Assembly (NCBI GenBank): GCA_903940125.1
Contig: CAJAJL010000020.1
Span: forward strand, 1 to 34,241
Length of the DNA stretch: 34,241 nucleotides
Origin: an uncultured Chlorobiaceae bacterium
Lineage (GTDB): Bacteria; Bacteroidota; Chlorobiia; Chlorobiales; Chlorobiaceae
Direction: 5' to 3'
The notes beneath the pieces are model-generated. The model saw only the letters and a program-made list of their open reading frames with translations. It ran no database searches and had not been told where the DNA came from. The position numbers were made by a program, and so were the translations under genes. Shown in pieces: positions 3,109 through 27,791 of this stretch (its first letter is position 1; each line of letters opens with the position of its first letter).

Positions 3109-3567
3109 ATGTTCAAGATTCACACTATTCTTTGTCCAGTCGATTTTTCAGATGCATCCAAAAAGGCGATACGGTATGCTCAGGAATTTGCGGCAAATAT
3201 GGGAGCTTCTGTCTATCTGTTGAATGTTGTGGAACCACGGCCTATGGCGGTTGATGTATCGCTCAACTATGTGCCTTTTGAAGCAGACCTTGAAAAAGCG
3301 GCAAAAGATGATCTTGAAGTTATTCTTAAAGATTTTCATCGTGTCGGTCTGAGGGCTGAGTATGGTGTGGTCATTGGTAATCCTGCTGACTCGATCCTTG
3401 AACATATTGACATGTTCAATGTCAATCTTGTTATCATGGGCTCTCACGGGAAAAAAGGACTGAGTCGCCTTATTATGGGCAGTGTGGCCGAGACGGTTGT
3501 CCGCAAGGCTAATTGTCCTGTGCTGATTGTAAAATCGGAAGAAAAGGAGTTTATCGGCGAGGAATAA
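3109..3567 (+). CDS. Universal stress protein, UspA family
   Basis: A 152-aa single Usp domain begins HTILCPVDFSDASKKAIRYA and ends with GSHGKKGLSRLIMGSVAETVVRKANCPVLIVK. The latter contains the G-x2-G-x9-G-(S/T) nucleotide-binding signature, so this is the ATP-binding class. The conserved Asp of the PVDFSD motif is present. Such proteins are cytoplasmic dimers induced by starvation or energy stress. It lies 12 bp after the slipin gene in the same direction. Its last 17 bases overlap the 3' end of the convergent meaB gene, leaving no room for a terminator between them. Confidence 0.95.
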   Translation: MFKIHTILCPVDFSDASKKAIRYAQEFAANMGASVYLLNVVEPRPMAVDVSLNYVPFEADLEKAAKDDLEVILKDFHRVGLRAEYGVVIGNPADSILEHIDMFNVNLVIMGSHGKKGLSRLIMGSVAETVVRKANCPVLIVKSEEKEFIGEE

Positions 3568-4573
3568 AAGCCTCTATGAGTTTTTTTGCACCGCTGAAAG
3601 GGCTTATTTCTGTGGAAAGCACTTGTCGTTCGATGCTCTCTTTCGAAGCAATCACGTCAGGGTGTGAGAAAAACTCTTTTTTCAGCATCTCTTCAAGCAC
3701 GGTATAAAGCAGGCTGTTCAGCTGCTTGCGTCGTCGAGTCTCAAGGATGTTCTCTTTGCGCATTGCTGTGAAAAACTCAGAAATATTCTCCCAGACATCC
3801 TTGATTCCCTTGCCGGTGAGGGCTGAGGTGAGAAAAACCTCCCGTTTCCATACCGGATGTTTTACCGGCAGCATTCTGAGCGCTGCTTCAAATTCTGCTC
3901 TTGAAATGGCGGCAATGCCGGATTGATCACCGTCGGTTTTGGTAATTGCCACAGCATCGGCAATTTCCATGATACCTCGTTTGATGCCCTGAAGTTCGTC
4001 ACCGGAGCCCGGCAGCATCAGAAGCAGAATAAAGTCGACCATGGTGTCCACAAGCACTTCCGATTGGCCGACTCCTACGGTTTCAACAAGAATGACATCA
4101 TACCCTGCAGCTTCGCACAGCACAATGGCTTCGTGGGTTTTCGGCGATGTACCGCCAAGGTAGCCCGAAGAAGCGGTTGGTCGGATGAAGGCTTCCTTTC
4201 TTGCGGCAAGTTTTTCCATGCGTGCCTTGTCGCCGAGGATACTCCCTTTTGACTGACGGCTGCTCGGGTCGATGGCCAGCACAGCCAGGGTAAGTCCCTG
4301 GTTGATAATCAGTTCACCCAGCGCTTCGATAAAGGTGCTTTTTCCTGCCCCCGGAGCGCCGGTTATGCCGATGCGTAACGATGAAGTTTTTTTTGTAATG
4401 CACCGGTCAAGAATTTCATGTGCTTTTCGCTCATGCTCTGGTTTCAGCGATTCAATCAGGGTAATCGCTCTGCTCAGCATGTGGCGGTCACCATTCATGA
4501 TGCCGTTGACGACGGTATCGACGTCCGGGTCGTGATATGGCTTCAGTCGGCTGTGAGTTTCACCGCTTCTCAT
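3551..4573 (-). CDS. meaB: Methylmalonyl-CoA mutase-associated GTPase MeaB (G3E family)
   Basis: The 340-aa protein is a G-protein chaperone that protects methylmalonyl-CoA mutase and gates loading of adenosylcobalamin. Visible motifs are the P-loop GAPGAGKST at residues 72-80, AIDPSSRQSKGSILGDKARM (a MeaB/ArgK hallmark), TASSGYLGGT, the ETVGVGQSE segment equivalent to switch II/G3, and ITKTDGD for guanine recognition. A C-terminal helical dimerisation arm is present (EFFTAMRKENILETRRRKQLNSL). Older databases call the family LAO/AO transport ATPase or ArgK. Its ATG overlaps the TAA of the mutase large subunit by one base (TAATG), so the two are translationally coupled. It is the last gene of the propionyl-CoA operon. 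Confidence 0.96.
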   Translation of the reverse strand: MRSGETHSRLKPYHDPDVDTVVNGIMNGDRHMLSRAITLIESLKPEHERKAHEILDRCITKKTSSLRIGITGAPGAGKSTFIEALGELIINQGLTLAVLAIDPSSRQSKGSILGDKARMEKLAARKEAFIRPTASSGYLGGTSPKTHEAIVLCEAAGYDVILVETVGVGQSEVLVDTMVDFILLLMLPGSGDELQGIKRGIMEIADAVAITKTDGDQSGIAAISRAEFEAALRMLPVKHPVWKREVFLTSALTGKGIKDVWENISEFFTAMRKENILETRRRKQLNSLLYTVLEEMLKKEFFSHPDVIASKESIERQVLSTEISPFSGAKKLIEAFIPRR

Positions 4574-6714
4574 TATTCAAAGCGAGCAATAAGCTGTTTA
4601 AGAATGTTCGTGGCGGCTTCGGCAATAACGGTACCAGGTCCGAAAATGCCGGCGACACCTTTTTCATAAAGGAACGCGTGATCTCTTTCAGGAATAATTC
4701 CACCGGCAATGACAAGGATATCCTCTCGGTGTTTTGCTTTCAGCTCCTCAATGATTTTCGGTATAAGGGTTTTGTGACCTGCGGCAAGGCTCGATATGCC
4801 GATAAGGTGAACATCGTTATCAAGGGCCTGCTGGACAACCTCTTCAGGTGTCTGAAAGAGGGGACTGATGTCGACGTCAAAACCAATATCAGCGAATCCT
4901 GCAGCTATAACTTTTGCACCACGGTCGTGTCCGTCCTGTCCGACCTTGGAAACCATGATTCTTGGTTGACGGCCTTCAAGCTTGGCAAAGGTGTCTGCAA
5001 GCTGCTGAGCCTCTTTAAAGAGTATGTTATCCTGCATCTGTGACATATAGACACTGGTGTTAAGCCTGGTAATGGCGCGATATCTTCCGAATGTTTTTTC
5101 GCATGCTGATGATATTTCTCCCAAGGTAGCTCTTTTTCTAGCCGCATCTACAGCCAGTTCAAGTAGATTGCCCTCTCCTGAAGCAGCTGCCTCCTCAATT
5201 GCCCTGAGAGCAAGAGATGTTTCTTCACTGTTTCGTTCAGCTTTGATCGATGCAAGGCGCCTGAGCTGCTGCTCAAGAACAAGTGTATTGTCCACTTCCA
5301 GCAGTTCAATGTCAGTTTTGCTGGTGGTAGTGTATCCGTTGACGCCGACAATAATCTCTTTACCGCTGTCGATACGGGCTTGCTTGCGGGTTGCGGCCTC
5401 CTCAATCTGCAGTTTGGGAACTCCCTGTTCAATAGCCTTGACCATACCTCCTGCTGCTTCGATATCGCTGATGATCTTCCATGCTTTGGCCGCAAGCTCT
5501 CCGGTCAGGTATTCGACATAATTTGAGCCTGCCCATGGATCGATGCTTTTGGTTATGTCAGTTTCTTCCTGAAGGTAGAGCTGAGTGTTTCGTGCAATTC
5601 TTGCCGAAAATGGAGAGGGAAGTGCAATGGCTTCGTCGAGTGCATTGGTGTGCAGTGACTGTGTGTGGCCGAGCGTGGCTGCCAGAGCCTCAAGACAGGT
5701 CCGCGTAATATTGTTGAAGGGATCCTGTTCTGTCAGGCTCCATCCGGAGGTCTGGCAGTGGGAGCGAAGCATCAGGGATTTCGGATTTTTCGGGTTGAAC
5801 TGCCCGACAATTTTTGCCCAGAGCATTCTTGCCGCGCGCAATTTGGCTATTTCCATGAAATAGTTCATACCTGTTGCCCAGAAGAAAGAGAGGCGGGGGG
5901 CAAACGCATCGATGTCGAGTCCTGTTTTGAGGCCTGTACGAATATATTCAAGACCGTCGGCCAGAGTGAATGCAAGCTCAAGATCGGCCGTAGCGCCGGC
6001 TTCCTGCATGTGGTAACCCGATATGCTGATTGAGTTGAACTTCGGCATGTGGCTGCTGGTGTAGCGGAAAATATCGGCAATAATCCTCATGGATGGTTCA
6101 GGAGGGTAGATATAGGTGTTGCGAACCATGAACTCCTTGAGAATATCATTCTGAATCGTTCCGCTCAGCTTTTCAGCCGCTACACCCTGTTCTTCGGCAG
6201 CGACGATATAAAAAGCCATGACAGGAAGTACCGCTCCGTTCATGGTCATCGAGACAGAAATATCACCGAGGGGAATCTGGTCGAAGAGAATCTTCATATC
6301 TTCTATCGAGTCGACAGCTACACCGGCTTTACCGACGTCCCCGATGACCCGTTCGTGATCTGAATCATAACCACGGTGGGTTGGCAGATCGAAGGCAACT
6401 GAAAGACCTTTCTGGCCCGCAGCAAGATTCTGACGGTAAAAGCGGTTTGATTCCTCAGCTGTTGAAAATCCTGCATACTGTCGTATAGTCCATGGCCTTG
6501 TCGTATACATGGTGGAGTAGGGTCCTCCAATGTAAGGTGCAAAGCCGGGTGCAAAGTTCAGGTGATCAGCCTGTTCTAAGTCACTTTCATGGTAAATAGA
6601 TTTGATTCCGATGCCTTCTGCCGATGTCCAGGCTTGCGGTTGAACTTCGCAGCACTCTTGACTGGCTGCTGCATTGGAAGAAAAAATATCAATGGCTGAA
6701 AAGTCCGGTCTCAT
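4573..6714 (-). CDS. mutB: Methylmalonyl-CoA mutase large (catalytic, cobalamin-binding) subunit
   Basis: This 713-aa subunit carries the radical B12 reaction converting (R)-methylmalonyl-CoA to succinyl-CoA. The TIM-barrel part shows [21 protein letters not shown] (residues ~63-83), [13 protein letters not shown], and [10 protein letters not shown] (catalytic His region). The B12 domain occupies about residues 580-713 and contains [10 protein letters not shown]; the DxHxxG motif (D594, H596, G599) supplies the base-off His ligand. [13 protein letters not shown] and AGGIIPERD are also typical. Length matches the family. Its start overlaps the small-subunit stop by four bases (ATGA), consistent with stoichiometric heterodimer synthesis, and its stop overlaps meaB. 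The operon context suggests propionate assimilation or succinyl-CoA/propionyl-CoA interconversion. Confidence 0.98.
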
Positions 6715-8474
6715 TTCACTCCGGTTTTATGTTGAAAGGAGGTCAGCATGTCAAGGACGTTGACGCCAGTGTAAATAAAGCTGTCAATGCCTGCATCGAG
6801 GAGCTGATCATGTTCTTTTGGGGGTTTGCCGGCCATGACCGTGATAAGGCCGGGTTGGAGAGTGCGAAGTCTGGAGGCGATTGATGCCGCTGCAGGTGCG
6901 GGATCTTTTTCGGCCACGCAAAGGACAATAATGTCTGGTTTACTTTGCAGTGCGGTGCTGTAAGAGCTCTCTTCAACAGGAAGAGCCGATCTTCCTGCAA
7001 TCTCAAAACCTCCGCACTTGAAAAAATCTTCTGCAAAAGCAGCCTGCCTGAAACTTACTGCGGGATCGCCCAGCATCCAGATGAAGAGTGACGGTGTACG
7101 ACCGGACTTTTGGCTGAAAGCCAGTGTTTTAAGACGCAGCAGCTCATACCCGGCCGTTTCATTCCCTTCAGGTGTTGTTGAAACTCTCCCTTTTAGTTTT
7201 TCCATGTTTTCAAGCTGTTCGGGCGTAAGAGGCCATGGATATCGGTTGACGCCGATAAGAGTTTTTTTCCGGTTATCGAGACTTTTGCGTCGTTTTGTTT
7301 CAGCGTCCGAAATCATTGCCTGGATAAAGCCGCTCTTTGTAGCTTCAGCTGAACCGCCCTGTGCTTCAATCTCTTTAAAGATTATCCATGCAGATTCTGC
7401 AAGGTTTCTTGTCAGGGTTTCGATGTAGTGAGAGCCCTGTGTCGGATCGACAACCCGGTCGAGAGACGCCTCTTCCTTGAGAATGAGATGAATGTTAGCG
7501 GTAATTCGCTCAGCAATATCAGGGCTTACGGAAAGTCCGGTATCAAACGCTCCAATCTGAAGCGTATCGTAACCGCCGAGCACTGCTGAAACTGCTTCAG
7601 TGGTCTGTCGAAGGACATTGGTGTAGGGATCAAGCAGAGAACGGTTTCTTTCAGATGTTCTGGCAAAAAGGGCAGGAAGCGAAGTCGCTGATGCCCCGTA
7701 TGCTTTCAGCAGATGCCCGAGAAGGTAACGCAGAGCTCTTGGTTTTGCAAGTTCAGTAAAATGGCTCGATCCGACCGGCAAAATGATGGTTATGGCTGAC
7801 GCAACAGTGTCAGCCGGAATGCCAGCTTGAAGATACCGATCGAGACAGTCGCTGACTCCGGCAAGTGCCAGTGCAATTTCCTGCACGGCAGTTGAGCCTT
7901 TATCGTGCCAGGGAATGGTATCGACTGTAAGTAGTCGGAAGTCTGATAGTGATGCACCATACGCAAAAAGCTCAGTATCCTGCACGGTTGAAGCCGAAGC
8001 GGGCTCTACAAGCAGCCCGCCGCAATTATCGGTAAACCCAGGAATAGTAAGGAGGGTTTTCAGAAGTTCAGCAGCAGGGGGAAGGTTTCCGGAAAAGTAT
8101 ACAGCTGCAGCAGAAAGTTTAATTCCTGTAAAGAGTCTGATGAGATTTTCAGGTGTACAGAGCGCAGGGTCAGTTATCAGGAACTCAATTGCAGCCGTAT
8201 CCAGCGCAAAACTATTCAAGGCAGCCTGGTTGGCGGATTCAGAGTCGAAAACAGTGATTTGCCGGCAGTTTTTCCAGCTGTTGGATGGTTTATAGAGTGG
8301 TATGTCAAGAGGTCGGGTTTCTTCTTCATGGCTGTACCAGGGTTCAAGAGTAAACCCGTCCGGCGTTTGCCAGACAATACTCTCATAAGGTGTTCCCTTC
8401 AGCTCGGCTATAACCTTTTTTTTCCAATCCTCCCGGCTGACCGCCGGGAACTCATGAAAGAGAGAATCAGGCAA
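6711..8474 (-). CDS. mutA: Methylmalonyl-CoA mutase small (non-catalytic) subunit
   Basis: This is the structural partner of MutB. The barrel-like region includes [38 protein letters not shown] and [20 protein letters not shown]; a flavodoxin-like C-terminal domain follows. The C-terminal domain lacks DxHxxG (it reads [11 protein letters not shown]), as expected for the subunit that does not bind cobalamin. The open frame runs back to 8876, but everything before about 8522 lies within the preceding carboxyltransferase gene and has no family character. I place the start at TTG 8474, one base past the upstream stop and 6 nt after AGGAAG; ATG at 8522 is the alternative and would add 16 residues overlapping the upstream gene. 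From TTG the protein is 587 aa, near the family length. Confidence 0.93.
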
Positions 8475-8475
8475 A

Positions 8476-10278
8476 TTATGCTTCCTGCTCTTCGAGCTGG
8501 GTTTGTTCAATCCTGTATTCATTGAGGATTTCGGTGATTTTAAATTTAATTTTTGAAGGCAATGCCGTTCTTTCAACAAATCCCTTCTGCTGCAGCCACC
8601 AGGTTGTCTGGAAGTCTCTTGTTGTTGCTTTCCCTGTATACTGCTCAATGACACGTTTACCGGAAAATCCGATGTTTCCGGCATTATGCTCAAAAAGTTT
8701 GATTCCCCTCGATGCGATACCGATGGCCACACCTCCGAGCGTAGGATCGGTAATGATGGAGATGACAGGAAGACCTGCTTTTTCAACACTCGATATTGCA
8801 ACATGCAGTTTGGGCAAACCCACCATCGAAGAACATCCTTCATGCATTCTCGCACCACCACCCGTTGCCTGTACAATAAGTGGCACTCTTTGCCTGATTG
8901 CGGCCTTGCTTGCCCGCCAGATTTTTTCTGCAGTAGTCATGCAGAACGATCCTCCAAGGAAGTTGAAGTTGGTGGCGCAAAAGACAACAGGTTCTCCCTG
9001 AATTGTGGCATCTCCGGTTATAAACGATGCTGCAGCTCCGGTTTTCTGTTGTGCCTCATCAATTTTTTTCCGGTAATCGGGAAATTTAAGGATATCCTTG
9101 TCGACAATGTAACGGGTGTCTTCATGTTCCTGGAATGTACCAGGGTCAATGATCAGATCGATGTAGTCATGGGCGGTGAGTCTGACATAACGGTGACCGC
9201 ATGTTTCGCAAACAAAATTGTCGCCGAGCAGTTTTGAATAAAGAATCGGGTCCAGCACTCTTTTGCCTGTTATGTTGTGGCAGTTTTTATGCCGGGCAAC
9301 AAAAAGAACATTCTCGGGTTTAGGGATGAAGAATGAAACAGGTTTTTCGAAAGCAGTAATCTCTTCTTCAGTGATGGTATTCCACTGGCCGATTTTTTCC
9401 CAGCGTTCCATTCTTTGTGCAAAGATCTGTTCTTGCGGTATTTCGCTCAGCTTGTCAAGCCACTTGACCATTGATGTTTTGAACGATTGAAGAGCAGACT
9501 CGCGGTAATGGTGTGCCGGCCCTTCAGGTTCTTCTATAATTTCATCAATAATGCCGTTTTTCAAGGCTTTCAGGGCTGTTATCTGTGAAATCTCCGCAGC
9601 GAAACCGGCTTTTTCCCTTGTGCGGAACAAAATGGATGAACATGCTTCAGGCGAAATAACCATGTAGGTTGAGTATTCCATTGCCAGAACAACATCGCAT
9701 CCAGTCAGAGCAATGGCACCTCCGCTGCAGCCCCGGTTAATAATGACCGATAAGGTTGGAACCGTTGCTTCGGCGAGTAATTGCATGCATCGCCCTATCT
9801 TCCAGGCGATACCCCCTGCTTCAGATTGTTCGGTTGGATCAGCACCAGCCGTATCAATCACTGTAATGATGATGCGGTTTTCCTCTTCAGCAATTTTAAT
9901 GGCATCGTTCGCTTTTTCAAATGCCGCCGGTGTTGGCATACCCTGATTCCATTTGTGTATCTCAACAGGATTTCTCATCAGTTTGCGCATGAGCACAAAA
10001 TCAGATGTCGGACCTGATTGCTGGCCGATCAGCATGACAGGCAGAATCTTCGATCCATTGCGCAGAATTGCCCGGTGAGTCTGGATGATGCAGCTGCCGT
10101 AGAGGTCGTTCTGCAGACACTCTTCAGCGGCTTCAAATACTGTCAGGTAATCAAGGTGTTTCGGGCGTTCGGGGTGAAAGGAGAGTTGATACTTTTCGTA
10201 TTCGGTAAGCTGTTCAATACTCTCGCGAGAGTAGCTGAAGCCCTCTCTTTTTTCAAAAGGCAGATAAAAATGTTTCAC
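8476..10278 (-). CDS. Fused alpha-beta acyl-CoA carboxyltransferase (AccA-like plus AccD-like halves)
   Basis: The 600-aa protein has two crotonase-fold halves. Residues ~45-300 are AccA-like: VIDTAGADPTEQSEAGGIAWK, then CSGGAIALTGCDVVLAMEYS and VISPEACSSILF. Residues ~325-600 are AccD-like: a metal knuckle, then NFNFLGGSFCMTTAEKI, TGGGARMHEGCSS, TDPTLGGVAIG and GFSGKRVIEQYTGK. The first pair of the AccD zinc knuckle is HxxC (H330, C333) rather than CxxC; the second is C357-x2-C360. It should transfer carboxyl from carboxybiotin to acyl-CoA. Its position between epimerase and mutase genes suggests propionyl-CoA as substrate, though acetyl-CoA is possible. Biotin carboxylase and carrier genes are absent from the window. 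It starts 28 nt after the epimerase stop. Confidence 0.9.
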   Translation of the reverse strand: MKHFYLPFEKREGFSYSRESIEQLTEYEKYQLSFHPERPKHLDYLTVFEAAEECLQNDLYGSCIIQTHRAILRNGSKILPVMLIGQQSGPTSDFVLMRKLMRNPVEIHKWNQGMPTPAAFEKANDAIKIAEEENRIIITVIDTAGADPTEQSEAGGIAWKIGRCMQLLAEATVPTLSVIINRGCSGGAIALTGCDVVLAMEYSTYMVISPEACSSILFRTREKAGFAAEISQITALKALKNGIIDEIIEEPEGPAHHYRESALQSFKTSMVKWLDKLSEIPQEQIFAQRMERWEKIGQWNTITEEEITAFEKPVSFFIPKPENVLFVARHKNCHNITGKRVLDPILYSKLLGDNFVCETCGHRYVRLTAHDYIDLIIDPGTFQEHEDTRYIVDKDILKFPDYRKKIDEAQQKTGAAASFITGDATIQGEPVVFCATNFNFLGGSFCMTTAEKIWRASKAAIRQRVPLIVQATGGGARMHEGCSSMVGLPKLHVAISSVEKAGLPVISIITDPTLGGVAIGIASRGIKLFEHNAGNIGFSGKRVIEQYTGKATTRDFQTTWWLQQKGFVERTALPSKIKFKITEILNEYRIEQTQLEEQEA

Positions 10279-10306: not shown

Positions 10307-10714
10307 TTAATGCTTTTTCTGAGCAAACTCAATAAGTACCCTGTTTGTCTCTTTTGGATGAAGAAACATGATTTTTTTTCCGCCTGCCCCCTCTTTTGGC
10401 AAGCCGAGTGGATGAATGTTAAGAGATGCAAGGCGTTCCGTTTCTTTGTCAATATCGTCGGTTTCAAGCGCTATATGATGCATGCCATCCCCGTTTTTTG
10501 CAAGAAATTTTGCAATCGGGCTTTCATCGCTCAATGGCTCAAGAAGTTCGATTTTTGATTCACCGATTGTAATAAATGCCACTCTGACTTTTTCAGAGTC
10601 AACTTCTTCAATCCTGATTGTCGCAGGGTCGCACCCGATAACGTTCCGGAACGTATCGAGTGCGCTTTCAAGGTTCTGAACGGCAATAGCTATGTGGTCA
10701 ATTTTTTTGATCAT
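10307..10714 (-). CDS. mce: Methylmalonyl-CoA epimerase
   Basis: The 135-aa vicinal-oxygen-chelate protein converts (S)- to (R)-methylmalonyl-CoA, linking the carboxylase to the mutase. It starts MIKKIDHIAIAVQNLE, with metal-ligand His7. It continues with VAFITIGESKIELLEP (substrate-loop and Glu-bearing strand), FLAKNGDGMHHIALETDDI (second His, residue 79 or 80) and FLHPKETNRVLIEF (Glu129 as metal ligand). This is one complete double betaalphabetabetabeta unit of normal length. Its ATG overlaps the stop of the upstream acyl-CoA synthetase by four bases (ATGA), so the two genes are translationally coupled. Confidence 0.96.
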   Translation of the reverse strand: MIKKIDHIAIAVQNLESALDTFRNVIGCDPATIRIEEVDSEKVRVAFITIGESKIELLEPLSDESPIAKFLAKNGDGMHHIALETDDIDKETERLASLNIHPLGLPKEGAGGKKIMFLHPKETNRVLIEFAQKKH

Positions 10715-12639
10715 TTGCTTACTGTCGTGGCTGATTTTGGTTTTTCCTGCGCATAGCCGATTGTCTGCAGTACTGTGGTTATCTCTTCGAGAATCATCGG
10801 GTCATCTATCGTCGCCGGCATGGTATACTCTTCCCCGTTGGCAATTTTTCTCATAGTGCCGCGAAGAATTTTCCCTGACCTGGTTTTCGGCAGACGATTG
10901 ACAATAACTGCGCTCTTGAACGAAGCGACTGGCCCGATATTTTCACGGACGTACTCGATGACATGCTTGATGATAAGGTTGTGAGGGGTTTCGACATCAT
11001 TTTTAAGAACAAGGAAGCCCAGCGGAACCTGTCCTTTCAAGTCATCATGGACGCCGATAACCGCGCTTTCAGCAACATCAGGATGTTCGCACAGCGCACC
11101 TTCAATACCACCGGTTGAAAGTCTGTGACCGGCAACATTGATAATATCATCCGTTCGCGACATGATATTAATGTACCCGTCTTCGTCGATGAATCCGGCA
11201 TCACTGGTCTGGTAGTAGCCGGGGAACTCCTTCATGTAGCTGTCAACAAACCGGTTGTCAGCTTTCCACAGGGTCAGCATACAGCCTGGAGGGAGAGGCA
11301 GTTTTACAACAATATCTCCCATCTGACCAGCTGGAAGCTCATGCATATCTGCATTGATGACCTGGACATTATAACCTGGAACCGCCCTTGATGCTGAACC
11401 GTACTTCACCGGACCGGGTTCAATACCCTGGCAGTTGGCAGCAATTGCCCATCCGGTCTCAGTCTGCCACCAATGGTCGATAACCGGTACCTTCAGTTTC
11501 TCTTCAGCCCATTTCACGGTATCGGGATCAGCCCGTTCTCCGGCAAGAAACAGAGTACGGAAATTTCCTAAATCATAGTGCTTGAGATAGGTGCCGTTCG
11601 GATCTTCCTTCTTGATTGCTCTGAAAGCGGTCGGTGCGGTAAAAAGGACCGAGACGTTATATTCGCTGATGATTCTCCAGAAGGTACCTGGATCGGGTGT
11701 ACCTACCGGTTTACCTTCAAAAATCAGGGTGGTGCAGCCCTGGAGAAGTGGGGCATAGACAATATAAGAGTGGCCGACAACCCAGCCGACATCACTTGCC
11801 GCCCAGAAAACCTCTCCGGGTTCCACATTATAAATATTTTTCATAGACCATTGCAATGCCACCATGTGGCCGCCGTGATCGCGAACAATGCCTTTAGGCT
11901 GCCCGGTTGTTCCGGAAGTGTAGAGAATATAGAGGGGGTCGGAAGATTCAACAGGGACACATTGTGCAGGTTCCGCGCCTAGAAGTGACTGGTTCCAGGT
12001 AAGATCCCGCTCTTCGTTCAGTTCTGCCTTAAGCTGGTCACGTTGTTTGATGATACAGATTTCAGGCTTGAAGTGTGCCAGTTCAATAGCGAAATCAAGG
12101 AGACGTTTGTAATCAATAATTTTGCTGTGTTCAATACCGCATGATGCAGAAATGATGACTTTCGGCTTACAGTCATCAATACGTATTGCAAGTTCATGAG
12201 AAGCAAAACCTCCGAACACCACGGAATGGATTGCCCCGATTCTTGCGCAGGCAAGCATGGCGACAACCGCTTCGGGAATCATAGGCATATAGATGATAAC
12301 CCTGTCACCTTTGCGTACTCCTCTTGACTGCAGGGCACCGGCGAAAAGCGCTACAATGTCCCGAAACTCACGGTAGGTATAACGTTGCTTGGTACCTGTT
12401 ACAGGGCTGTCATAAATAACAGCCAACTGATTGCCGCGGCCCTCATCAACATGGCGGTCAAGGGCATTGTAGCAGGTGTTGGTAATCCCTCCGGCAAACC
12501 ATCGGTAAAAAGGGGGGTTGTTTGTGTCTAAAACCTTGTTCCATTTCTTGTACCAGTGAAGCTTTTCAGCGGCTTCTCCCCAGAAAGCTTCAGGAGCCTG
12601 AATTGATTGCTGATAGACGGTATTGAAGGACTGCGGCAT
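10711..12639 (-). CDS. prpE: Acyl-CoA synthetase, PrpE-type propionate--CoA ligase (acetyl-CoA synthetase family)
   Basis: The 642-aa AMP-forming ligase activates a short-chain acid. Motifs are the ATP-binding loop TSGTTGQPKG (residues 241-250), DHWWQTETGW (A5 region), MSRTDDIINVAGHRLSTG (A8 hinge) and TRSGKILRGTMRKIANG with the catalytic, typically acetylatable Lys (A10). The N-terminus (VYQQSIQAPEAFW, then NNPPFYRWFAGGITNTCYNALDRHV) resembles PrpE more than Acs. As the first gene of the operon ahead of epimerase, carboxyltransferase and mutase, it probably makes propionyl-CoA; acetate is an alternative substrate. A GGGGG tract lies about 8 nt before the ATG. The operon promoter should lie in 12640-12949. 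Confidence 0.92.
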   Translation of the reverse strand: MPQSFNTVYQQSIQAPEAFWGEAAEKLHWYKKWNKVLDTNNPPFYRWFAGGITNTCYNALDRHVDEGRGNQLAVIYDSPVTGTKQRYTYREFRDIVALFAGALQSRGVRKGDRVIIYMPMIPEAVVAMLACARIGAIHSVVFGGFASHELAIRIDDCKPKVIISASCGIEHSKIIDYKRLLDFAIELAHFKPEICIIKQRDQLKAELNEERDLTWNQSLLGAEPAQCVPVESSDPLYILYTSGTTGQPKGIVRDHGGHMVALQWSMKNIYNVEPGEVFWAASDVGWVVGHSYIVYAPLLQGCTTLIFEGKPVGTPDPGTFWRIISEYNVSVLFTAPTAFRAIKKEDPNGTYLKHYDLGNFRTLFLAGERADPDTVKWAEEKLKVPVIDHWWQTETGWAIAANCQGIEPGPVKYGSASRAVPGYNVQVINADMHELPAGQMGDIVVKLPLPPGCMLTLWKADNRFVDSYMKEFPGYYQTSDAGFIDEDGYINIMSRTDDIINVAGHRLSTGGIEGALCEHPDVAESAVIGVHDDLKGQVPLGFLVLKNDVETPHNLIIKHVIEYVRENIGPVASFKSAVIVNRLPKTRSGKILRGTMRKIANGEEYTMPATIDDPMILEEITTVLQTIGYAQEKPKSATTVSK

Positions 12640-19778: not shown

Positions 19779-22424
19779 ATGTCACCGGCAATGCGGAAAA
19801 AAAAGGATTTACTTTCAGTTTTTGTTACCGGTGATGTTACTATTGATTGGAATATCGCACATGTCTCACGTGAATCGCATGAACAAACTGACTGGATTGG
19901 CGAAGATATTTGCAGAATGAGCTGGCAATATGGCAGTGCGGTTCTGCTTGCTGACCTCATTACGGCCATGACGACTCAGCTCAAGGAAGAGCTGCTTTTT
20001 CCCATAGAGGTTACGAGTACTCACACAACCACACAAGAGCCGATTGATCCATACGACCCGCACTACTACCACTGCTACTCTGTTTGGGCTCCTTACCGTG
20101 ACAAGGAAGCTCCCGATACTGTCATCTGGCGGGTTGAGCGGTTTCTCGGTCTTGACCGGTCATCCAAAATAGCTACGGAACACATTGGTGTTGACGATGT
20201 TCCCACCGGTTCCAAAAATGCGGATATTATTGTTATCGATGATGGCAATCTTGGTTTCAGAGATCACCCTGCTCATTGGCCCCAGGCGATACGTCATCCT
20301 CAAAAGGATAAAAAAGCTCCCTGGATTATTGTTAAGATGACCGGCCCTGTTGCTGAGGGAGCCTTATGGGAGCATCTTGTGTCCAAATTTTCGGATCGTC
20401 TTATTGTTGTTTTATCCATTAACGATTTGCGGCAGTCGGCCATTCAGGTGAGCGCTCAAATTTCATGGGAAAAAACAGCTCAGGAACTGATCTGGGAACT
20501 GACTCACAACCCAATGATCAACACGCTAACTCACTCAGCGTATAGTATCGTTTCATTTGGCCCGACTGGAGCAGTGCTTCTGCCGGGACATAAAAAGAGT
20601 GATGAAGCACCTCAGCTTCTGTTTGATCCATTTTATATGGAACGTGAATGGCCGGCAGGAAAAGGGAAAATTATCGGCAAAACATCGGTATTGTTATCAG
20701 GAATCGTTCGTGAAATCATCATCAATACTGAAAATCCCGATCTTACCAGAGGAATTCAGTCCGGTATTACAGCAATGCGTTATCTCCATAAGGCCGGATA
20801 TGAAAAAGATACAGACTTTTCACCCCGGTTGCGCTTTCCCATTGAAGGTGTCATTACCTCGTTGAAAAGCCTCGATATGCCACTTGCAAGTGCTGATTTT
20901 CCAATATTTGATATAGAAAACAAATCACAGCCCTCTTCCTGGACAATCCTAAGGGATCGATACCATGATGACCTTGAAGAGTTGAGTCAGCGGATTGTTC
21001 TTGAGGGCGCCAAAGCGGCATTGAACAATGTTCCGATTGGTGAGTTCGGGGAACTGGTTACGGTGGATCGTCAGGAGATTGAGTCATTGAGAAGTATTCA
21101 TAGTCTGATTGCAGAATATTGCAATCAGCAGGAAGAACGTCCTGTTTCAATAGCAGTTTTTGGCCCTCCAGGGTCAGGCAAATCATTTGCCGTCAAGCAA
21201 ATTGCCAAGGTTGCCAGTCCTGACAAAAAAATTGCAGAGAAAACGCTGACATTTAACCTTTCTCAGTTCAAAGGTCCGGCTGATCTCATCGATGCTTTTC
21301 ATCAGATTCGGGATATTGCTTTATCAGGTAAAATTCCGCTGGCATTTTGGGATGAATTTGATTCATCGCTCGATGGTAAACCCTTGGGCTGGCTGCGTTT
21401 TTTTCTGGCTCCAATGCAGGATGGCGAGTTTCAGCAAGGCCAGTTGACCCATCCTATAGGCAAAGCTATTTTTGTTTTTGCGGGAGGTACCTCTTCCAGC
21501 CTTGATTCTTTTACGAAATCAAAAAAACAACACCAGTTTATCGAAGCAAAAGCCCCCGACTTTCTAAGCCGCCTTAAAGGGTTTCTCAACGTCCTTGGGC
21601 CGAATCCGCAGCTATCGGAGGAACGTGATGACCCTTATTTTATAGTACGACGTGCCCTTCTTCTGCGATCACTGTTCGAGCGGTTGACACCTCAATTGTT
21701 TGATGGAAACCATAAACTCCGAATCGATACCGGAATCATGCGCGCATTTTTCCGGGTTGATTCCTATCGACACGGTTCCCGTTCGATGGAGGCAATTGTT
21801 GCTATGAGCAGGCTTGGAAACGCAACACATTTCAATCGATCCTACCTGCCTCCTGAAGAACAACTCAGACTCCATGTTGATCCTCACTCTTTTGTGGCAC
21901 TTGTTCATCATCTTGAACTCAGGGAACAACTTCTCGAAAAATTAGCCCGTCTTAACCATAAATTGTTTCATAACAATCTTAAAAGCCAGGGCTATGTCTG
22001 GGGAAAGGTGACCGATGAAGATGCTGATCCAAAAACGCACAGCTCCCTTGTCAGCTTTTCTGCCCTGTCACCCCATGAGCGGGAAGAGAATCGTGCGGCT
22101 GTCCGCGATATCCCCAATAAACTTGCGACGTTTGGATACGCCATAGTTCCAATGCGTAACAATGAGCAGGCGGTTGAATTTCCGATTCCGGAGCTGAAGG
22201 AAATGGCTAAACTTGAACACGAGAGGTGGATGGATGCCAAACTGAAGGATGGGTGGAAATATTCTCCTCACACCAACAAAGAGAAAAAGCTCCACGCTCT
22301 GCTTGTCGATTGGGAAAGACTCTCGAAAGAGGAAAAAGATAAAGACAGTTCGCTGGTTTCAGAAAGCATACCTCGTTTACTGAAGGAGGCGGGTTATACA
22401 ATAGTTAAACTCTCCCATACATGA
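19779..22424 (+). CDS. PfkB-like / AAA ATPase / RyR-domain protein, 881 aa
   Basis: Three regions are visible. Residues ~10-370 look like a ribokinase/PfkB fold: VFVTGDVTIDWNI at the start, ADIIVIDDGNLGFR, LIVVLSINDLR, then YSIVSFGPTGAVLLPG and GIQSGITAMRYL. Residues ~440-640 are an AAA-type ATPase with Walker A GPPGSGKS (462-469) and Walker B FWDEFD (D525, E526). The C-terminus (~805-870) is a RyR domain: ELKEMAKLEHERWMDAKLKDGW, then LVDWERLSKEEKDKD. Prokaryotic RyR domains are thought to sense nucleotide-like ligands and often occur in conflict or signalling proteins. No membrane segment is seen, so it should be cytosolic. A P-type ATPase gene follows 65 bp later. An internal ATG at 19791 is an alternative start; neither has a clear Shine-Dalgarno. 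Confidence 0.82.
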   Translation: MSPAMRKKKDLLSVFVTGDVTIDWNIAHVSRESHEQTDWIGEDICRMSWQYGSAVLLADLITAMTTQLKEELLFPIEVTSTHTTTQEPIDPYDPHYYHCYSVWAPYRDKEAPDTVIWRVERFLGLDRSSKIATEHIGVDDVPTGSKNADIIVIDDGNLGFRDHPAHWPQAIRHPQKDKKAPWIIVKMTGPVAEGALWEHLVSKFSDRLIVVLSINDLRQSAIQVSAQISWEKTAQELIWELTHNPMINTLTHSAYSIVSFGPTGAVLLPGHKKSDEAPQLLFDPFYMEREWPAGKGKIIGKTSVLLSGIVREIIINTENPDLTRGIQSGITAMRYLHKAGYEKDTDFSPRLRFPIEGVITSLKSLDMPLASADFPIFDIENKSQPSSWTILRDRYHDDLEELSQRIVLEGAKAALNNVPIGEFGELVTVDRQEIESLRSIHSLIAEYCNQQEERPVSIAVFGPPGSGKSFAVKQIAKVASPDKKIAEKTLTFNLSQFKGPADLIDAFHQIRDIALSGKIPLAFWDEFDSSLDGKPLGWLRFFLAPMQDGEFQQGQLTHPIGKAIFVFAGGTSSSLDSFTKSKKQHQFIEAKAPDFLSRLKGFLNVLGPNPQLSEERDDPYFIVRRALLLRSLFERLTPQLFDGNHKLRIDTGIMRAFFRVDSYRHGSRSMEAIVAMSRLGNATHFNRSYLPPEEQLRLHVDPHSFVALVHHLELREQLLEKLARLNHKLFHNNLKSQGYVWGKVTDEDADPKTHSSLVSFSALSPHEREENRAAVRDIPNKLATFGYAIVPMRNNEQAVEFPIPELKEMAKLEHERWMDAKLKDGWKYSPHTNKEKKLHALLVDWERLSKEEKDKDSSLVSESIPRLLKEAGYTIVKLSHT

Positions 22425-26704: not shown

Positions 26705-27754
26705 CTATCCCAGCTCGTACCAGACACCACGTCCACTGCCATGCTGGATAAGATGACCGCGTTCGACCAAGTTTCGGAAGTGCCCCTTCAAGGTGTTGCG
26801 GCTGCAACCAGTCAACTTGATAGCATCTCCTATGGTTATGCGCCCATGTTCACGGACAAACTCGACGATCTGCAGTGAGAGTTCCGGCAAGGAGGCTAAA
26901 ACGATCTTCTCATGCGCTACCTTTTTTTTAAGACGGTGTACCTGATCGGATAGTGAACGCAGGAAAAACAACAACCACGGCTGCCAGTTCGGAGCATCGG
27001 TACGGATCGTACCCTGAGTATGGCGCAGAGCCAGATAGTAGGCTTCCTTATTGAGTTCGATGACACTTTCCAATGAACTGTAAGGTACGTAGGTATACCC
27101 CGCCTGAAGTAACAGCAAGGTGGTCAGAACGCGACTGAGCCGTCCGTTGCCATCCTGGACCGGATGGATTCCGAGAAATACCACCACGAAGATAGCGATG
27201 ATCAGCAGCGGATGCAGTTGCGCCTTCTCACGTTCATCCTTAACCCAGGTTACCAATTCTTCCATCAGAAATGGAGTGTTGAATGGGGTCGCTGTCTCGA
27301 ACACGATACCGATCTGCTTGCCATTTTCATCAAAGGCCGCGACACTGTTTGAGTTGGTTTTGTAATGTCCCCGGTGCCGGGCATCTTTCTCACTGTGTCG
27401 TAACAGGATCTGATGTAACTGTTTGATGTGGTTCTCGCTGAAGGGGATATCTTGCCACGAGCTGAATACCAGGTTCATCAGCTCTGCATAACCTGCAACT
27501 TCCTGCTCGTCACGTGTTTTGAAAGACTGTATTGCCAGGTTGGAAAGGAGGCGCTCCACTTCACGATTGGATAGTTTGCTCCCCTCTATACGGGTCGACG
27601 ATCCGATGCTCTCGATGGTGGCGACCCGGCGTAAGGCTGAGAGTCGATCAGGGGCAAGCGTACCCAAGGCACGCCATGCGCCTTTGAATTCGTCGATCTG
27701 AGCGATAAGGTTCAGAATCTCTGGAGTGATTTGAAGAGTGTCGGTTCGAAGCAT
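26705..27754 (-). CDS. Fic family protein with C-terminal winged helix
   Basis: The protein (349 aa from ATG 27754) contains the N-terminal inhibitory helix motif STRIEG ((S/T)xxxEG, residues ~53-58), a class II Fic arrangement. A Fic_N region (SNREVERLL) is present, and the catalytic core reads IHPVQDGNGRLSR; the HPFx(D/E)GN(G/K)R motif is intact except that Val replaces Phe. The C-terminus is a winged HTH (DAIKLTGCSRNTLKGHFRNLVERGHL). Fic proteins usually AMPylate target hydroxyl groups; targets here are unknown. The frame can begin with GTG at 27769, but ATG 27754 (MLRTDTLQITPEIL) matches the usual start. Its 5' end and leader recur twice elsewhere as a repeat. Confidence 0.92.
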   Translation of the reverse strand: MLRTDTLQITPEILNLIAQIDEFKGAWRALGTLAPDRLSALRRVATIESIGSSTRIEGSKLSNREVERLLSNLAIQSFKTRDEQEVAGYAELMNLVFSSWQDIPFSENHIKQLHQILLRHSEKDARHRGHYKTNSNSVAAFDENGKQIGIVFETATPFNTPFLMEELVTWVKDEREKAQLHPLLIIAIFVVVFLGIHPVQDGNGRLSRVLTTLLLLQAGYTYVPYSSLESVIELNKEAYYLALRHTQGTIRTDAPNWQPWLLFFLRSLSDQVHRLKKKVAHEKIVLASLPELSLQIVEFVREHGRITIGDAIKLTGCSRNTLKGHFRNLVERGHLIQHGSGRGVWYELG

Positions 27755-27791
27755 AAACCAAAAATACACCCATTTACACCCATTTCAAAAT
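27742..27791 (-). repeat. Copy B of the Fic-start repeat, at the intact fic gene
   Basis: This copy spans the first codons of the Fic gene (ATGCTTCGAACCG on the minus strand) and its leader, which contains a direct repeat of the 10-mer ACACCCATTT (plus strand). It matches 844-893 at 44 of 50 positions and shares its first 19 bases with 33433. It is the likely source of the other two copies, or marks a conserved leader common to several fic genes. Confidence 0.7.

Follow-up and report, generated by a model that had tools for sequence, protein, structure and literature searches.

A fused AccA-AccD carboxyltransferase in the methylmalonyl-CoA operon of green sulfur bacteria is a probable propionyl-CoA carboxylase component

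PccB, MmdA and the 12S subunit of transcarboxylase are crotonase-fold carboxyltransferases (CTs) that work on acyl-CoA and carboxybiotin in the methylmalonyl-CoA pathway. In PccB the D-like half comes first, and there is no zinc knuckle. In the acetyl-CoA carboxylase (ACC) of E. coli, S. aureus and Chloroflexus, the CT is built from two separate chains, AccA and AccD. A fusion of the two in A-then-D order is already known from Shewanella AccS, which the accessible part of its report presents as a multi-domain ACC (PMC11602165) and which we take to be the same protein as the single-chain ACC AccADCB of entry 9kkm_A. A review, in its accessible part, states that Chlorobium incorporates labelled propionate and that methylmalonyl-CoA is the probable route (PMC11269200, citing labelling work from 1980). 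The accessible part of an early-evolution study credits acyl-CoA carboxylase CTs to some Chlorobi and does not mention an A-D fusion (PMC3199775). Among the papers listed by searches of the open-licence PMC literature, no title or abstract described the fusion reported here or named a Chlorobium gene for propionyl-CoA carboxylase, and the propionyl-CoA role that we propose from sequence comparison would be new.

Here, we investigated a window of 34,241 nt, which is an entire contig (C20) of a 2.98 Mb Chlorobiaceae genome bin, from a Chlorobium-type green sulfur bacterium, that is 98.6% complete. The fused CT gene lies on the reverse strand at positions 8476–10278, with a GTG start at 10278 and a stop at 8476, and encodes 600 amino acids. 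The AccA-like half spans 9343–10278 (reverse strand; residues 1–312 as cut for the trees), and Pfam ACCA passes on residues 17–297 with 202.6 bits against a cut-off of 23. The AccD-like half spans 8479–9246 (reverse strand; residues 345–600), and the NCBIfam accD model matches residues 345–588 with 172.1 bits and an E-value of 1.5e-50, below its equivalog cut-off of 317.45. The accA model TIGR00513 likewise scores 173.8 bits, below its equivalog cut-off of 319.3. For reference, a standalone AccA from the same genus scores 436.4 against the accA model, and the AccD of the same genome scores 360.4 against the accD model. The original prediction of an AccA-like half followed by an AccD-like half is therefore borne out by the positions of the two domains.

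Both halves lie in one open reading frame, unlike the two separate chains of an AccA/AccD-type CT. Pfam Carboxyl_trans places model positions 7–183 of 493 on residues 366–554 and positions 307–429 of 493 on the A half. These segments fall in reversed order, so the fusion does not have the PccB/MmdA-type arrangement, and its mmdA score of 88.9 bits falls short of the cut-off of 998.8. Pfam and NCBIfam profile searches found neither a biotin carboxylase nor a biotin domain on the fusion chain. An alignment of relatives shows that the catalytic glycines are retained in both halves. A chance origin of the frame can be ruled out, as length, domain order and neighbours are all conserved.

We then modeled the fusion with AlphaFold2 from an alignment of 32 relatives (mean pLDDT 88.5, pTM 0.89). 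The A half is structurally similar to 8uz2_A, with a Z score of 29.1 and an rmsd of 2.2 over 279 residues, and the AccD half matches 2f9i_B (E 1.7e-35) and 2f9y_B (TM 0.82 of the target). The best match to the whole chain is the Shewanella enzyme (9kkm_A; Z score 29.6, rmsd 5.6 over 508 residues), which shares the A-then-D order. Unlike AccS/AccADCB, the fusion consists of A and D only, lacks the biotin carboxylase and carrier domains, and sits in a methylmalonyl-CoA operon instead of having a fatty-acid role. The D-first order of PccB and its lack of a knuckle are consistent with these sequence and structure comparisons.

The protein carries a zinc knuckle, H330-x2-C333 and C357-x2-C360, at 9199–9291 on the reverse strand. 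The HxxC motif and its residue numbering had been predicted correctly. In the alignment, H330 takes the place of the first of the four Cys in ordinary AccD, and the fusion has eight additional residues between the two ligand pairs, a feature that was not part of the original prediction; both differences set it apart from the two-chain enzymes. No variation occurs at H330, C333, C357 or C360 across the 78 aligned fusion sequences, which comprise the window's protein and 77 of the 80 fetched loci; the other three loci hold partial genes and were excluded. A four-Cys pattern is present in 28 of 29 standalone AccD proteins from the same phyla. The His-Cys-Cys-Cys knuckle is therefore a mark of the fusion family, and by analogy with AccD it presumably binds zinc.

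Relatives of the fusion, drawn from 80 of 96 confirmed loci, were collected with a scan by two short peptide patterns that may have missed further holders. Those from Chlorobium, Chlorobaculum, Pelodictyon and other Chlorobiaceae are 61–99% identical to the fusion, and those of a second group, in Candidatus Neomarinimicrobiota/Marinimicrobia, are 55–60% identical. The second group comprises 16 loci, of which 12 are titled Neomarinimicrobiota or Marinimicrobia, one "FCB group bacterium" and three only "bacterium". Among the matches listed for 24 genomes of other families in the same order or phylum, no fused frame was present, and none of 33 pattern matches on viral contigs encoded a relative.

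We built a tree for each half using 26 of the 78 fusion sequences; nine of the 39 standalone AccA sequences were removed from the A tree by hand as near-copies within a genus. In both trees, the fusion halves group together (SH-aLRT 96 and 95), away from the ordinary AccA or AccD encoded by the same organisms. The fusion therefore did not arise by a recent union of accA and accD in its present host. It represents a distinct, old branch of the AccA/AccD family with its halves joined A-then-D, and this separate clade, together with scores that miss both the accA and the accD equivalog cut-off, distinguishes it from the two-chain enzymes. With a distant PccB outgroup on long branches as the root, the Neomarinimicrobiota sequences are nested within those of the Chlorobiaceae in the A-half tree (98, 89), and the two sets are sisters in the D-half tree (80, 61).

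The genes around the fusion run acs-mce-CT-mutA-mutB-meaB, all on the reverse strand. An acyl-CoA synthetase of 642 amino acids (10711–12639) appears closest to the propionate-CoA ligase PrpE, its best NCBIfam match being PRK10524 at 769 bits, below the cut-off of 955. It is followed by the methylmalonyl-CoA epimerase mce (10307–10714; 135 amino acids; TIGR03081, 143.5 bits, cut-off 114.95). Downstream of the CT are the small mutase subunit mutA (6711–8474; TIGR00642, 294.7 bits, below the cut-off of 617.25), whose start is likely the TTG at 8474, the large subunit mutB with its B12 domain (4573–6714; 713 amino acids; PRK09426, 1275.6 bits, cut-off 876), and the mutase-associated GTPase meaB (3551–4573; 340 amino acids; PRK09435, 455.7 bits, cut-off 329). 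This string confirms the earlier proposal that the fused CT occupies the PccB slot of a methylmalonyl-CoA operon. No dedicated biotin carboxylase or carrier gene lies within the operon. In all 25 same-genus fusion loci examined, the CT is preceded by acs and mce and followed by a mutase gene, all in the same orientation; co-occurrence of the epimerase with the fusion was checked in Chlorobiaceae. In four genomes of the genus (G013, G018, G023 and G029), mutA-like and mutB matches share one frame of 1093–1149 amino acids with a shortened mutA part, for example at L077:3187-6591 and L080:8806-12084. Elsewhere in the window are an 881-amino-acid protein with a C-terminal RyR domain and, by eye, an ATP-binding-like motif (19779–22424), and a Fic/DOC family protein (26705–27769).

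The original prediction had left the substrate as propionyl-CoA, acetyl-CoA or both, and took an absence of other accA/accD genes as a sign of a housekeeping acetyl-CoA role. We searched the same bin for these genes and for a biotin carboxylase and carrier. An accD gene over the equivalog cut-off is present on contig C65; accA, accB and accC were not found in the bin. PF02786 matches on contigs C77 and C78 were considered as AccC and rejected, as the genome has no PF02785 match; by eye, these are carbamoyl-phosphate-synthetase-like frames of 492 and 618 amino acids, possibly a split carB. In a close relative, accA, accB and accC lie in a 14.8 kb block with the order rpoC - accC - accB - (efp, hup) - accA - korB/korA - alaS. 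The genome that carries a 99%-identical fusion has this block in one piece at 87% DNA identity, and the block has no match in the window's own bin. Pfam named rpoC, accC, accA, the POR-type subunit and alaS; accB was named in the neighbouring locus L243, and efp, hup and korB were named by eye. Since rpoC and alaS are missing from the bin as well and the near-identical genome has the block, the absence of accA, accB and accC is an assembly or binning gap. The accA part of the proposed test and the search for biotin carboxylase and carrier thus came back negative in the bin for this reason, with accB and accC present in near relatives. Standalone AccA is present in 35 of the 36 other genomes of the genus, and a biotin carboxylase likewise in 35 of 36. 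Together with the bin's own accD, this rules out the fusion as the sole housekeeping ACC; it is an additional CT beside the ordinary ACC.

Next, we compared the distribution of the fusion with that of the mutase. Across 37 genomes of the genus, including the window's own, the fusion is present in 33 and the mutase in the same 33. Neither was found in G011 (100% complete), G019 (81%) or G033 (80%), and G026 (80%) has a mutase fragment of 118 positions and no fusion. The complete genome G011 retains AccA and AccD, and no PccB/MmdA-type gene of any kind was found in it. G011 may have lost its entire C3 metabolism, and the shared absence of fusion and mutase may go back to the deletion of a single block of genes.

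The strongest test of a propionyl-CoA role comes from the second group, where the fusion is the only candidate found. It was sampled as 14 genomes reached via fusion loci, for which completeness was not given, and the mutase is present in all 14, with its gene on the fusion's contig in seven, 7.8–18.4 kb away. At this sampling, no PF01039 match of PccB length was found in nine of the 14. In the other five, a match of 532–548 amino acids is present. One of these scores 675.9 bits to methylcrotonyl-CoA carboxylase and at most 264.4 to a PCC beta chain in a comparison with solved structures, the other four are 70–73% identical to it, and HMG-CoA lyase adjoins all five. By sequence, these five are assigned as MccB-like proteins of the leucine pathway. 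A PccB for propionyl-CoA was therefore not detected in a single one of these 14 genomes of unstated completeness, and none of their PF01039 matches is the CT of an OAD-type decarboxylase or a transcarboxylase. Instead of a mut operon, the fusion in this group has genes for ETF beta, ETF alpha and an iron-sulfur protein as its nearest neighbours, a setting that fits acyl-CoA oxidation. The neighbour of 665–672 amino acids, a candidate for a dedicated PccA by its length, was rejected, as Pfam and NCBIfam identify it as an iron-sulfur/CCG protein following ETF beta and alpha.

Exactly one biotin carboxylase is present in 13 of the 14 second-group genomes, and G067 has none. The one that we checked passes the accC equivalog, and the adjoining BCCP gene passes its own. 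Among the 32 fusion-bearing congeners, 27 have a single biotin carboxylase that scores over the cut-off, and the other five have two. Where the cell contains a single AccC-type enzyme, a fusion that depends on biotin carboxylase would have to share AccC with ACC. Separately, loci L221 and L248–L251 carry MccB beside HMG-CoA lyase, yet there is one biotin carboxylase match per genome. Methylcrotonyl-CoA carboxylase in some Neomarinimicrobiota-type genomes may also borrow AccC.

Taken as a whole, the comparative evidence now favours propionyl-CoA among the substrates first considered. In both Chlorobium-type green sulfur bacteria and Neomarinimicrobiota-type bacteria, the fusion is probably the CT of a propionyl-CoA carboxylase and would work with borrowed AccB and AccC. 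The synthetase would make propionyl-CoA, the housekeeping AccC would place CO2 on the biotin of AccB at the expense of ATP, and after carboxylation the epimerase and then MutAB with MeaB would lead to succinyl-CoA. We infer the substrate, the use of AccB/AccC and the direction of flow from gene content and context.

The window's own genome also encodes other C3 enzymes. One set (contig C59; L069:4347-7840) consists of an MmdA/PccB-like CT, OAD-gamma, a biotin carrier and OAD-beta, the make-up of a sodium-pump-type decarboxylase; among solved structures, PCC beta chains give its CT the highest score, 720.7 bits. A Na+-linked methylmalonyl-CoA decarboxylase has been reported in Chlorobium phaeovibrioides, according to the accessible part of a review (PMC11269200). 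A second set (contig C100; L070:7686-11457) combines a 12S-like CT with a carrier and a 5S subunit (978.9 against an equivalog cut-off of 827), and is a Propionibacterium-type set for a methylmalonyl-CoA:pyruvate transcarboxylase in a green sulfur bacterium. In principle, either enzyme could act on propionyl-CoA and interconvert it with methylmalonyl-CoA. Propionyl-CoA carboxylation in Chlorobium therefore has more than one candidate enzyme, of which the fusion is the best.

Three other explanations were weighed. The fusion could be an accessory ACC CT for malonyl-CoA production, or it could take acetyl-CoA and propionyl-CoA alike, as both halves are of the AccA/AccD kind and not PccB, and a single-chain Saccharopolyspora carboxylase is reported, in the accessible part of its source, to accept both substrates (PMC6491548), making dual use possible. 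However, the genus has full separate ACC genes, the fusion and mutase keep to the same 33 genomes while G011 without both keeps its AccA and AccD, and the operon context points elsewhere; we consider this explanation unlikely. Slightly less probable is a reverse reaction, in which the fusion would pass the CO2 of methylmalonyl-CoA to AccB biotin and save ATP for malonyl-CoA synthesis, with propionyl-CoA arising from the succinyl-CoA of the reductive TCA cycle. Such a carboxyl shuttle is chemically possible if AccB is shared with ACC, given one AccC-type biotin carboxylase in most genomes, and a transcarboxylase already exists in some genomes of the genus. Against it, the synthetase at the head of the operon points to propionate uptake, Chlorobium already has the Na+-pump-type decarboxylase for the reverse step, and the ETF context in Neomarinimicrobiota suggests oxidation. 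We give the least credence to carboxylation of propionyl-CoA by the C59 or C100 enzyme, with the fusion taking another acyl-CoA or serving a regulatory role through its zinc knuckle, as both CTs are indeed close to the PCC/MmdA type but their OAD-beta/OAD-gamma and 5S partners are marks of a decarboxylase and a transcarboxylase, the second group lacks such genes among its PF01039 matches, and the fusion keeps its catalytic glycines.

Returning to the fusion as a propionyl-CoA CT, we lean, by a modest degree, toward a broader reading. Two lineages, the Chlorobiaceae and the Neomarinimicrobiota-type bacteria, would have replaced PccA/PccB with a zinc-bearing A-D fused CT re-specialised for propionyl-CoA and served by one shared AccB/AccC hub, and in some Neomarinimicrobiota MccB would be a third CT on the same single biotin carboxylase. 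If this is true, one supply of carboxybiotin in those Neomarinimicrobiota would have to serve three competing processes: the synthesis of fatty acids, the use of propionate and the breakdown of leucine. By the usual gene names, the operon has no propionyl-CoA carboxylase, despite the reported assimilation of propionate by Chlorobium. Since family models place the fusion nearest to ACC subunits and below their cut-offs, automatic annotation of both green sulfur bacteria and Neomarinimicrobiota may overlook this step of the pathway. The fusion would be a natural case of a CT with a changed substrate that could share the biotin hub of ACC.
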